Shown: one piece after another, positions 21,629-32,546 of the stretch | How positions within the stretch are numbered: the stretch's first letter is position 1 | Layout: each line of letters starts with the position of its first letter | Source: Planctomycetales bacterium 10988 | GTDB taxonomy: Bacteria > Planctomycetota > Planctomycetia > Pirellulales > Pb10988 | Length of the DNA: 64,000 nucleotides | Assembly: GCA_009664345.1 (NCBI GenBank) | Contig: CP043547.1 | Location: 5,732,709 to 5,796,708 of the forward strand | Reading direction: 5' to 3' | Position numbers and translations under genes: made by a program | Notes under the pieces: model-generated | Seen by the model: only the letters and a program-made list of their open reading frames with translations | Database searches by the model: none | What the model was told of the DNA's origin: nothing

Positions 21629-23047
21629 ATGAAGATGTTTTTAAATAGTGAATGGGTCGATCGAAGCGAAACCATTGATGTCCTCAATCCGTATGATGGG
21701 TCTGTTGTTGATACCGTTCCGAAAGGAACTGGAGATGATGTTGACAAAGCCGTCGAAGGCTTGAAAGCCGGGGCGGAAACGATGCGGAAGATGACCGCTT
21801 ACCGCCGCTTCGAGATTTTGCAAACCGCCACGCAGATCATGCGGGAACGGAAGGAAGACCTTGCCCAAACGCTTAGTAAAGAAGAAGGCAAGACCATCAA
21901 AGAGGCCCGCGGCGAAATTGACCGATCTAGCCAAACGATGGAGCTTTCCGCCGAAGAGGCCAAACGAATTTATGGCGAAGTTCTGCCTTTGGATGCCGCT
22001 TCGCACGGCGCGGGGAAATTTGGCTTTACTCTGCGGATTCCATGCGGCATCGTCGGGGCGATTTCTCCGTTCAATTTTCCGTTGAATCTCGTCACCCACA
22101 AAGTCGGTCCTGCCATCGCTGCTGGAAATGCGGTGCTGCTCAAACCTGCCAGCGATACTCCATTGATTGCGATGAAGCTCGTGGAGATTCTATTGGAAGC
22201 GGGTCTTCCCACTGAAGCAATTGCGATTATCACTGGCTCGGGAAAAGAAATCGGCAAGGCCATCTGTACCAATCCGCATATTCGCAAGATTACCTTCACC
22301 GGCTCGCGCGAAGTCGGCGAAGCGATTTGCAAAATGGCCGGCCTCAAAAAAGTCACCATGGAGCTTGGTTCGAATTGTCCTTTGGTCGTCATGCCGGATG
22401 CGGATTTGGACAAAGTGGCGAAGTTGACGGTAGCGACTGGCTTTGCAAATGCGGGGCAAGTTTGCATCTCCGCCCAACGGATCTTGGTCGATAAGAGCGT
22501 TTACGACGAGTATTTGGAGCGGTTAGAGAAAGAAACCCAACAAGTGAAGGCGGGCAATCAGCTCTTGGAAGAATCCGGGATGGGGCCGATGGTTCGTGAA
22601 TCGGATGCCGTGAGAGTGGCCGAATGGATTGACGAAGCGGTCTCCGGTGGGGCACGTAAACTCTGCGGCGGCGAACGTCAGGGAGCCTTGCTCACGCCGA
22701 CCGTTTTGGCCGATGTCAAACCGGAGATGAAGGTTTCTTACGATGAAGTCTTTGGTCCCACGGTTGCGGTCAGTCATACGAGTGATATTGAAGAAGCCAT
22801 CCGCAGTGCCAGCAATACCAACTATGGCTTGAGTGCGGCGATCTTCACCCAAGATATCGACCGGGCTTTGAAATTCGCCAGAGAGGTTCCTTCCGGAAAT
22901 ATTCATATCAACTGGGGAACCGCTTGGCGAGCGGACCTCATGCCCTACGGAGGTCTCAAAGATAGCGGCCTCGGCAAAGAAGGCCCGAAGTACGCCATCG
23001 AGGAAATGACCGAATCCAAAACGGTTGTCATTCATGGAAAGGATTGA
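21629..23047 (+). CDS. aldehyde dehydrogenase family protein
   Basis: The 472-residue protein is a full-length NAD(P)-dependent aldehyde dehydrogenase. Asn149 in SPFNFPLN, the Rossmann-type FTGSREVG, the general base Glu245 (ELGSNCPLV) and nucleophile Cys279 (GQVCISAQR) are all present. The C-terminal GLKDSGLGKEG is canonical. The NCPLVVMPDADLD stretch resembles the lactaldehyde/non-phosphorylating glyceraldehyde-3-phosphate dehydrogenase subgroup, but the substrate cannot be fixed. It stands alone, with the four-helix-bundle element starting 25 bp after its stop. Confidence 0.93.
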   Translation: MKMFLNSEWVDRSETIDVLNPYDGSVVDTVPKGTGDDVDKAVEGLKAGAETMRKMTAYRRFEILQTATQIMRERKEDLAQTLSKEEGKTIKEARGEIDRSSQTMELSAEEAKRIYGEVLPLDAASHGAGKFGFTLRIPCGIVGAISPFNFPLNLVTHKVGPAIAAGNAVLLKPASDTPLIAMKLVEILLEAGLPTEAIAIITGSGKEIGKAICTNPHIRKITFTGSREVGEAICKMAGLKKVTMELGSNCPLVVMPDADLDKVAKLTVATGFANAGQVCISAQRILVDKSVYDEYLERLEKETQQVKAGNQLLEESGMGPMVRESDAVRVAEWIDEAVSGGARKLCGGERQGALLTPTVLADVKPEMKVSYDEVFGPTVAVSHTSDIEEAIRSASNTNYGLSAAIFTQDIDRALKFAREVPSGNIHINWGTAWRADLMPYGGLKDSGLGKEGPKYAIEEMTESKTVVIHGKD

Positions 23048-23071
23048 GGGCGGGGAAGCCCGTCTTGGCGA

Positions 23072-23164
23072 GGTTCCACGAATGCCAGGGTGACGAATCG
23101 TGTTCGGTGTTCGGTATTCAGTGTTCGGTACTTGGGAGGAATGCTTTTCGGCAAGCGTGAATTG
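23072..23164 (+). repeat. left inverted repeat arm of the IVS-like element
   Basis: Heptamers are TTCGGTG (23103), TTCGGTA (23110), TTCAGTG (23117) and TTCGGTA (23124), followed by CTTGGG at 23131. The R position reads G-G-A-G. Two further degenerate heptamers (TTCAGAG, TTCGGAA) occur at 23186-23199, inside the element. Confidence 0.85.
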
Positions 23165-23218
23165 GAAGCAGGGTGACGGCTAGGTTTCAGAGTTCGGAAG
23201 AGAATGTCTGAGAGGAAT

Positions 23219-23581
23219 TTAGCTTTTTGAAGAATTAGAGTTAATGGATTGTGTGAGGCGGGTCAACATCCGGGCGATCCCTTTCGTTTCTTCGACAAGG
23301 TATTTCATGTTTTGTTGATTGATCATTTCGACCTTCGCTGCGATGTAACCCTGGGTGCGAAGTTCGGCAGCCGAACCTTTTGCGATTCTCAAGAACCGTT
23401 CAAAGTCCTTCCCTTCGCGTTCACATCCCTCGGCGATGTTGGAAGCGATAGAGACAGCCGCTCGTTGCATTTGATCTTTCATGCCAAAATCGCGGCTCTC
23501 TCTTGTTACTTGATAAACAAAGACTGCCAGATTGCAAGATCGTTTCCAAACATCAAGGTCTTCAAACGATTGAAATGCCAT
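23219..23581 (-). CDS. four-helix-bundle protein, S23/IVP family (TIGR02436)
   Basis: The 120-residue protein begins MAFQSFEDLDVWKRSCNLAV and contains DFGMKDQMQRAAVSIASNIAEG, the signature of the S23 ribosomal/intervening-sequence protein family (PF05635/TIGR02436), to which DGR accessory protein Avd is related. The family forms a pentameric four-helix bundle with a basic surface and is thought to bind nucleic acid. It was first found in insertions within 23S rRNA. Here the gene lies between two about 94-bp inverted repeats that carry heptamer arrays, suggesting the protein recognises them. Its strand is opposite to both flanking genes, and no reverse transcriptase or variable repeat is nearby. 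Confidence 0.93.
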   Translation of the reverse strand: MAFQSFEDLDVWKRSCNLAVFVYQVTRESRDFGMKDQMQRAAVSIASNIAEGCEREGKDFERFLRIAKGSAAELRTQGYIAAKVEMINQQNMKYLVEETKGIARMLTRLTQSINSNSSKS

Positions 23582-24106
23582 ATTAGATTATTCCTCCAAC
23601 AAATTTGCCTCCTCCTTTTTATTTTGAAGGACTTTCGACTTCCAGCAAATTTTGGGTTTTTCTCTATCTCACGATTTCTTTCCTCCCTTCTTTCAATTCA
23701 CCGTTGCCAAAAAAGTATTCCTCCCAAGTACCGAACACCGAACACTGAAAACCGAACACAAATCCCAACCCTGGCATTCGTGGAACCCCGCGATTCCCTT
23801 TTCGCTCGTGCCTAAAAACTCCCCTTGCCAAAAACCCTTTGTTTCTGGCATAGTATCCCTTCCCAAAGGCACCCGCTCGGCCCAACTTTTCGGTGGCCAA
23901 AGCTTGTATCCCTTCTCAGGTGCGGCGGGAATCATCTCAGCGAAATACTTCTCTATCTCTCCTATTCTAATGCGATTTGCCGATAAATTCGGAATAAGCG
24001 AGATAATCCAAAAAGTTTATCAAAAAGACTAAATCTTACCGATCCTAGTCGTCGATACCGGAAGCGACGTTGCGAATCAGAGAACTAGACGGGAGAGAAC
24101 TATATC
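23582..24106. other. intergenic region: right arm of element and leader of the DUF11 gene
   Basis: The first 205 bp belong to the IVS-like element. From 23788 to 24106 there is no gene; GGGAGAGAA at 24091-24099 is the likely ribosome site of the following gene. Confidence 0.55.
23694..23787 (-). repeat. right inverted repeat arm of the IVS-like element
   Basis: Read on the minus strand, the heptamers are TTCGGTT, TTCAGTG, TTCGGTG and TTCGGTA (23756 down to 23729), then CTTGGG. The R position reads G-A-G-G, so the two arms of this element are distinguishable. Confidence 0.85.
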
Positions 24107-26282: not shown

Positions 26283-26327
26283 CCAACGCCTTGGGCCAAC
26301 TTTGGTCCAAGGCGTTGGTTGTTTTTA
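26283..26327 (+). terminator. intrinsic terminator after the DUF11 gene
   Basis: A perfect 12-bp stem (CCAACGCCTTGG at 26283-26294 with CCAAGGCGTTGG at 26307-26318) is followed by TTGTTTTTA. Confidence 0.92.
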
Positions 26328-26376
26328 TGCGCGAGAAAAACGGGCCTTGGCGAAGGCTCGTGGGAGAAGAGCTCTA

Positions 26377-26540
26377 AATAGGTTTCGGGTTTCAGGATTC
26401 AGGTTTCAGGATTGGCGATGAAAATTGATCGGCTACCCACGCTCATTGGCAAAGATAGTTAGGACAAAATATTCACTTTCGCACCCAGTCGATTTTCACC
26501 CCAAGTCCCGAAACCTGAACCCTGAAACCCGAAACCTATT
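26377..26540. repeat. gene-less heptad inverted-repeat element (copy 2)
   Basis: The arms 26377-26414 and 26503-26540 are about 38-bp inverted repeats with two or three differences around an about 88-bp spacer. Each arm is AATAGGT, then four tandem heptamers (left TTCGGGT, TTCAGGA, TTCAGGT, TTCAGGA at 26384-26411; right, on the minus strand, TTCGGGT, TTCAGGG, TTCAGGT, TTCGGGA at 26533-26506), then TTGG or CTTGG. The plan equals that of the S23-bearing element, with G replacing T at the sixth base of the heptamer. Confidence 0.8.
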
Positions 26541-32183: not shown

Positions 32184-32546
32184 TGTAGCTTACAAATACG
32201 TACGGGTCGTCCAAGTTGCGAAAACGGGGAAACTCGCAACATACCAGATCAAAGGGAGATTGGCAATGGACTAGAAAGAGAAAGAAGAAAAATGTAGGCG
32301 GGGTGACGCGAAAACCAGGGGGATAAATCGTGTTCGGTTTTCAGTGTTCGGTGTTCGGTGTTCGGTTCAGGAAGGTTACATCGGTTCTCAAGTTATATCT
32401 GAATCGCACTGTATATATAAGGAGAAAAAGTTCCATACCTGCTCTCGATTTTCGGCCCAAGTACCGAACACTGAAGACCGAGCACCGGACACGAATCTTT
32501 AGGTATCAACCCGTGAAACTTCGCCAAGGAATGTGAACTCCAATTC
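32184..32546. other. intergenic region upstream of ffh with heptad element
   Basis: Holds the inverted-repeat element at 32325-32500 and, to its left, about 140 bp that must include the ffh promoter. No gene is seen. Confidence 0.55.
32325..32500. repeat. gene-less heptad inverted-repeat element (copy 3, reversed polarity)
   Basis: The left arm has five tandem heptamers (TTCGGTT, TTCAGTG, TTCGGTG, TTCGGTG, TTCGGTT; 32333-32367). The right arm, read on the minus strand, has TCCGGTG, CTCGGTC, TTCAGTG, TTCGGTA (32489-32462) then CTTGGG. The left arm shows the G-A-G-G order of the S23 element's right arm, and the right arm shows the G-G-A-G order of its left arm, so this copy is inverted. The outer flank CCAGGG...ATCGTG also resembles the S23 element. 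About 95 bp separate the heptamer arrays. Confidence 0.8.

Follow-up and report, generated by a model that had tools for sequence, protein, structure and literature searches.

We identified at 26377-26540 of the window (the whole stretch of DNA analysed, 64,000 nucleotides from the 6.65-Mb, single-contig genome of Planctomycetales bacterium 10988) a gene-less palindromic element that, with a probability of roughly two in three, is an S23-type heptad element in non-autonomous form, short and bounded by a pair of inverted arrays, each of about four degenerate seven-base repeats. The class to which we assign it has either a single gene, S23, or none at all, and elements of both kinds insert at or beside gene ends in other bacteria. 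The copy in the window presumably arose by insertion as well. We propose the S23-heptad element here as a class, one that was little recognised before.

Structure of the element

The element is 164 bp long, holds no ORF of 60 aa and sits between a DUF11 gene and a DUF481 gene, 141 nt behind the upstream gene. With arms of 52 nt that match at 45 of 52 positions (87%), it is the second-longest inverted repeat of the window. Its parts and the two related copies in the window are:

23045-23814, minus strand: S23-bearing T-type element, with outer blocks at 23045-23102 and 23757-23814 and heptad arms at 23103-23130 and 23729-23756
23219-23581, minus strand: S23 (23S_rRNA_IVP) gene of element 23045-23814, 120 aa (PF05635, E 9e-32)
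26326-26383, plus strand: possible degenerate outer block (family consensus TGAGGGCAGGGAAACCCGCCTTGGCGGGGTTTCACGAACACCAGGG), uncertain, aligned with 23 other outer blocks
26377-26540, no strand assigned: gene-less palindromic heptad element; inverted repeat, fold z of about -11, dozens of relatives in the genome
26384-26411, plus strand: left arm, four TTCRGGN heptads (TTCGGGT TTCAGGA TTCAGGT TTCAGGA)
26412-26428, plus strand: left inner box TTGGCGATGAAAATTGA, a degenerate version of the family box CTTGGGGTGAAAATCGA, from direct reading and comparison with family members
26489-26505, minus strand: right inner box CTTGGGGTGAAAATCGA, from direct reading; common to T-type family members
26506-26533, minus strand: right arm, four TTCRGGN heptads (TTCGGGT TTCAGGG TTCAGGT TTCGGGA)
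32275-32494, no strand assigned: third copy in the window, gene-less, with T-type heptads and an outer block on its left side

Direct reading of the arms bore out the claim of an earlier, sequence-only reading that each arm holds exactly four TTCRGGN heptads and an inner (C)TTGG box (the heptads are followed by ATTGGCG and ACTTGGGG boxes). The layout is, as that reading also had it, shared with the S23-bearing element, and the third copy has the same plan too. The arms indeed match over about 38 bp, but not with the two or three differences reported earlier: they differ at 2 positions over the first 35 bp, at 4 over 38 bp and at 7 over 52 bp, so the earlier count was slightly low. At 26326-26383 the sequence model of the outer block (R1) gave no match at E 0.001, and this block is therefore uncertain and at best degenerate.

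The hairpin is confirmed as real and not a product of chance. Its inverted-repeat score was 31, against 11 or less in 638 tiled 164-bp windows, and none of 200 shuffles folded as well as the RNA predicted from either strand (minus strand, -90.9 kcal/mol, z -11.3; plus strand, -73.4 kcal/mol, z -10.7). An Rfam scan of the whole window gave no match. Between the DUF11 gene and the element lies an intrinsic-terminator-like hairpin (26285-26316), followed by a T-rich stretch.

A dispersed family at gene ends

A two-arm TTCRG heptad pattern matched the genome 29 times at 17 distinct places, and a reversed control pattern not once. The genome stretches fetched around matches held 107 arms and 43 two-arm elements of the TTCRGKN family, nearly all gene-less and with loops mostly of 80-143 bp. 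The search for further copies thus places 26377-26540, as had been anticipated, among many dispersed gene-less copies that share their arms with S23-bearing elements. Four units was the commonest arm length whether the heptads were T-type (21 of 41 arms), G-type (23 of 39) or mixed (12 of 27), and a few arms had slipped to 7-23 units. G-type and T-type heptads co-occur in single arrays or in opposite arms of one element; the sixth base therefore represents variation inside one family. For G-rich heptads of other types no usable copy numbers resulted, since their search pattern matched the genome no more often than its reversed control did.

Many copies are extended, at one end or at both, by a further block (TGAGGGCAGGGAAACCCGCCTTGGCGGGGTTTCACGAACACCAGGGTAACGAATCGTG) of some 55 nt, the outer block. 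Its sequence model had 58 matches, and those inspected lay directly outside the heptads. The block contains a REP-like hairpin (CCCGCC-TT-GGCGGG) just behind stop codons; it starts no more than 6 nt from a stop codon in 28 of the 58 cases and exactly on one in 15. None of the 40 elements that could be placed lies inside a predicted gene, 13 sit between convergent genes, and the first heptad follows a gene 3' end at a median of 55 nt, genes having been predicted by a simple codon-usage script, which may put individual distances in error. A search by orthologues for an empty site matching 26377-26540 gave none, as the genomes searched included no close relative and no member of the genome's family.

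Three further features of the family were observed. Between 0 and 1.92 Mb of the genome there was no TTCRGG array (0 mismatches) or outer block among the matches listed, and both were frequent from 1.92 to 6.25 Mb. A palindrome, AAAAAGTRCTTTTTG, recurs in the loops of many elements of the genome (e.g., L217, L223 and L224), sometimes twice. At genome positions 3997225-3998204 (L054, 1526-2505), G-type arms 980 bp apart enclose two similar minus-strand ORFs of about 130 aa, a possible cargo; neither ORF had a Pfam match and no S23 remnant was found in this element.

S23 genes, insertions and scars

The genome has four S23 (PF05635) genes, each between inverted heptad arrays, of the types TTCRGTG (the window copy), GAGTGGG/GGGTGGA, GGGAATA/TAGGGAN and GAGGGGC. 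The idea of a separate G-type S23 did not hold in this genome, since none of the four genes has G-type arms and the two types mix inside single arrays. One of the S23 genes (L062, genome 2311300-2315600) is flanked unevenly, by a run of about 30 perfect GGGAATA heptads at one end and by no more than a short array of degenerate TAGGGAN units at the opposite end, and in another genome (G326, locus L168) about 27 CTCCAGG heptads run in a row directly upstream of the S23 reading frame.

The association extends over many phyla. A period of 7 or 8 was present in 129 of 159 flanks of 80 S23 genes, compared with 6 of 153 control stretches, and 75 of the 80 loci had such an array on at least one side. 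For pairs of S23 genes from different phyla, the mean arm score rose from 2.9 to 15.4 across bins of protein similarity (Mantel, 0 of 500), whereas distal flanks went from 1.4 to 2.1 over the first four bins and reached 5.3 in the last, which holds at most five pairs. Since arm similarity rises with S23 similarity and that of distal flanks hardly does, the heptads travel or evolve with the protein; this co-divergence could reflect inheritance of whole elements rather than recognition. Within the phylum (392 genomes), S23 was present in 23 of 25 genomes with TTCRG hairpins versus 176 of 367 without them (P 1e-5). One genome (G031) has about 30 arm matches and no S23 gene, so gene-less copies can outlast the gene.

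Filled and empty sites were found on Nostocales plasmids that share one operon: pNsp_a, pNsp_c, pNsp_b (Nostoc ATCC 53789), pC052_A, B, D, p057_H and pNPM1 (N6). In the gap between genes B and C, three plasmids carry an S23 element of at least 420 bp with GTCAGGA heptads, where five have only GGTTCTAGGTTATG or a close variant. The gap between genes C and D holds a 505-bp S23 element with GGGAAAA heptads in pNsp_c that is absent from four others, and the gap between genes A and B has a gene-less GTCAGGA hairpin in five plasmids and an uninterrupted CAGACTTATACCAATTTTAAGTAG in three. The simplest A-B hairpin spans about 120 bp, has some four heptads in each arm and shares the layout of the window element. 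Gene A, otherwise 321 bp long, reaches about 357 bp through the insertion, and two plasmids have another gene-less hairpin nested inside the A-B loop, loop contents differing. On Calothrix NIES-22 plasmids, an S23 element of 468 bp with heptads of the AGGGTGT type occupies a site at which three relatives have just a 3-bp spacer.

These cases amount to four filled/empty sites, three with S23-plus-heptad elements and one with a gene-less hairpin, and S23 is the sole gene of the minimal inserted S23 copies (420-505 bp). One Nostoc plasmid with a gene-less heptad hairpin also holds an S23 element of the same heptads. All four sites lie at a stop codon or within about 12 bp of one, in tightly packed operons; the data fit both targeting and survival. 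A direct repeat, TTCTA (or CTA), borders one S23 element, and no clear duplication was seen at the other sites, the gene-less one included. The class therefore does move. The demonstrated insertions are of cyanobacterial elements with other heptads than those of 26377-26540; hence the earlier description of this element as a MITE-like relative of an S23 element stands for the class, through the gene-less hairpin with filled and empty sites, and carries over to this copy as a probable origin.

Movement is rare in the related genus g30, where most elements are found at one shared intergenic position in two to four species, between flanks of 80-90% identity; six further g30 sites yielded no clean empty site, and most carry elements, at one of them with heptad types that differ between species. 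At one orthologous site, G414 has the full S23 element (116 aa), G362 has it in the opposite orientation between the arms, and in G031 and G368 only scars of the arms are left. Flipping and gene loss at this site mean that derivation by deletion does happen, in keeping with the suggestion that gene-less forms derive from an S23 element. In the comparison of L258 (918-1318) with L281 (1015-1417), the flanks of two species are collinear, and the S23 element differs in its orientation between the arms. At two sites, rho-ribH (L237-L240) and L268/L332/L335, one species has a TTCAGTG hairpin and another a different G-rich heptad palindrome (GAGAGGG/TTAGGGT type). Conservation was estimated at 0.87 for arms, 0.88 for flanks and 0.77 for loops, values that are rough because arm borders were found automatically.

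Alternatives, mechanism and known systems

The element could instead be a static gene-end structure kept for its RNA, as a bidirectional terminator, an RNase III site or an mRNA-stabilising hairpin, with S23 as an RNA-binding partner. The placement about 55 nt behind stop codons and, in 13 of 40 cases, between convergent genes is consistent with such a role, as are the very stable fold and the stability of positions across the genus. The S23 intervening sequences of rRNA are, moreover, cut by RNase III (PMC4990558), and the similar heptads of Xanthomonas are transcribed (PMC4692102). We nevertheless consider this explanation unlikely, because filled and empty sites show insertion as a block and the signs expected of RNA pairing were missing. 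The earlier claim of selection on pairing found no backing: the A/G patterns of the arms matched at 0.57 within elements versus 0.53 between them (214 of 1000 shuffles), and there was no bias for G:U over A.C on the S23 sense strand (34 versus 46) or per element. Elements with two arms of different heptad types persist even though they pair poorly, and 26377-26540 lies beyond a separate terminator-like hairpin. The stronger fold of its minus strand was considered as a family trait and rejected, being absent across the family. These negative tests lead us to lean toward a DNA intermediate, without settling between DNA and RNA.

A MITE or REP-like element of the usual kind, mobilised by a standard transposase (e.g., Y1/RAYT or DDE) and sharing its arms with S23 elements by chance, would likewise be small, intergenic, present in many copies and bounded by terminal inverted repeats, and the REP-like hairpin of the outer block, just behind stop codons, also points that way. 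We regard this as improbable, however, for no transposase was found between such arms; the gene-bearing copies inspected hold S23, save the 980-bp copy with two unrelated ORFs, and the minimal inserted copies hold S23 alone. Least probable is a G-rich simple-sequence repeat grown by polymerase slippage and kept for G-quadruplexes, as proposed for the Xanthomonas GGGAATC heptads, with which the family shares its four-unit preference, inverted pairs, stop-codon proximity and length variation of up to 23 units (PMC4692102): T-type heptads (TTCRGTG) lack four G-tracts and have the same four-unit mode, which disfavours quadruplexes as a general reason, and slippage makes neither conserved outer and inner boxes nor insertions at new sites.

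For a mobile S23-heptad element, we envision that the heptads could be recognition sites, on DNA or RNA, of an S23 pentamer. A ring of S23 subunits reading tandem repeats is plausible because the solved relatives 2gsc and 2rld have five chains per entry. S23 (23S_rRNA_IVP) is, to our knowledge, an abundant family with solved structures whose function is not known, and we know of no catalytic or recombinase domain in it. Cutting and joining might therefore fall to a host or other enzyme, and gene-less copies with matching heptads may use, in trans, the protein made by copies with S23. Loops could change freely. After insertion behind a gene, the element would be mostly inert and stable, later changes probably being heptad slippage, inversion between the arms, nested insertion and deletion.

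Tentatively, and with a confidence that falls a little short of even odds, we extend this model to S23 four-helix-bundle proteins in general as the trans-acting factors of a widespread, unrecognised mobile class without a transposase gene. Each lineage would read its own seven-base arm code, moving itself (420-500 bp, one gene of about 120 aa) as well as many gene-less hairpins, and would insert at gene ends. If true, rRNA intervening sequences, the heptad repeats of Xanthomonas and cyanobacteria, and the hairpins described here would be one system. Many genomes have intergenic heptameric repeats, which were noted long ago and still lack an explanation, and in the literature searched we found no paper joining S23, heptads and mobility. 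Their link to S23, with filled and empty sites, leads to one concrete hypothesis that covers the repeats and S23 alike: a mobile element reduced to the minimum, with a sole protein that has no known catalytic part. The Nostoc plasmids with paired empty sites offer natural test systems, and the possible recognition code could be read from sequence.

Several known systems resemble parts of this class. The rRNA intervening sequences of Leptospira and Coxiella place an S23/IVP frame of the same family, PF05635, between inverted repeats, as do the S23 elements here; the Coxiella sequence has tandem heptamers before the gene, was called selfish and had mobility proposed for it (PMC4990558). In contrast, 26377-26540 is intergenic rather than inside a 23S rRNA gene and has no S23 ORF, which its sister element at 23045-23814 does carry between inverted repeats. 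In Xanthomonas and Nostoc, Rehm et al. (2015; PMC4692102) described intergenic GGGAATC and GGGGA(C/T)T heptads with a preference for four units and convergent inverted pairs, of which Xanthomonas has 70-75 per genome, close to stop codons and mostly syntenic between two Xanthomonas. In their reading these are simple repeats that form quadruplexes; neither S23 nor a mechanism of insertion enters into it. The family described here shares the four-unit preference, the inverted pairs and the proximity to stop codons, yet it differs in having S23 genes between such arrays and T-type arms free of G-tracts, whereas every heptad of its G-type arms contains GG or GGG. X. campestris does have an S23 protein (2gsc, XCC0516).

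Hairpins behind stop codons, extragenic location and inverted pairing are also shared with REP/BIME elements and their RAYT transposases (REP families in PMC3733652). REP palindromes measure 20-40 bp and have a GTAG or CGTC tag; our elements are much longer and contain tandem heptads, and no GTAG/CGTC tag was noted in them. The Avd protein of diversity-generating retroelements is a four-helix-bundle relative of S23, and two Nostocales S23 proteins match bAvd below its cut-off. Avd forms a pentamer and acts together with RNA and a reverse transcriptase; no reverse transcriptase was linked to the elements here. As in a MITE, 26377-26540 is short, gene-less, bounded by inverted repeats and present in many dispersed copies with gene-bearing relatives that share its ends, although these relatives code for S23, which has no transposase domain, and the ends are tandem heptads rather than a fixed terminal inverted repeat. 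Its features are those of the S23-heptad class as proposed here, in which inverted arrays of 7- (or 8-) base repeats bound either S23 or a gene-less loop.
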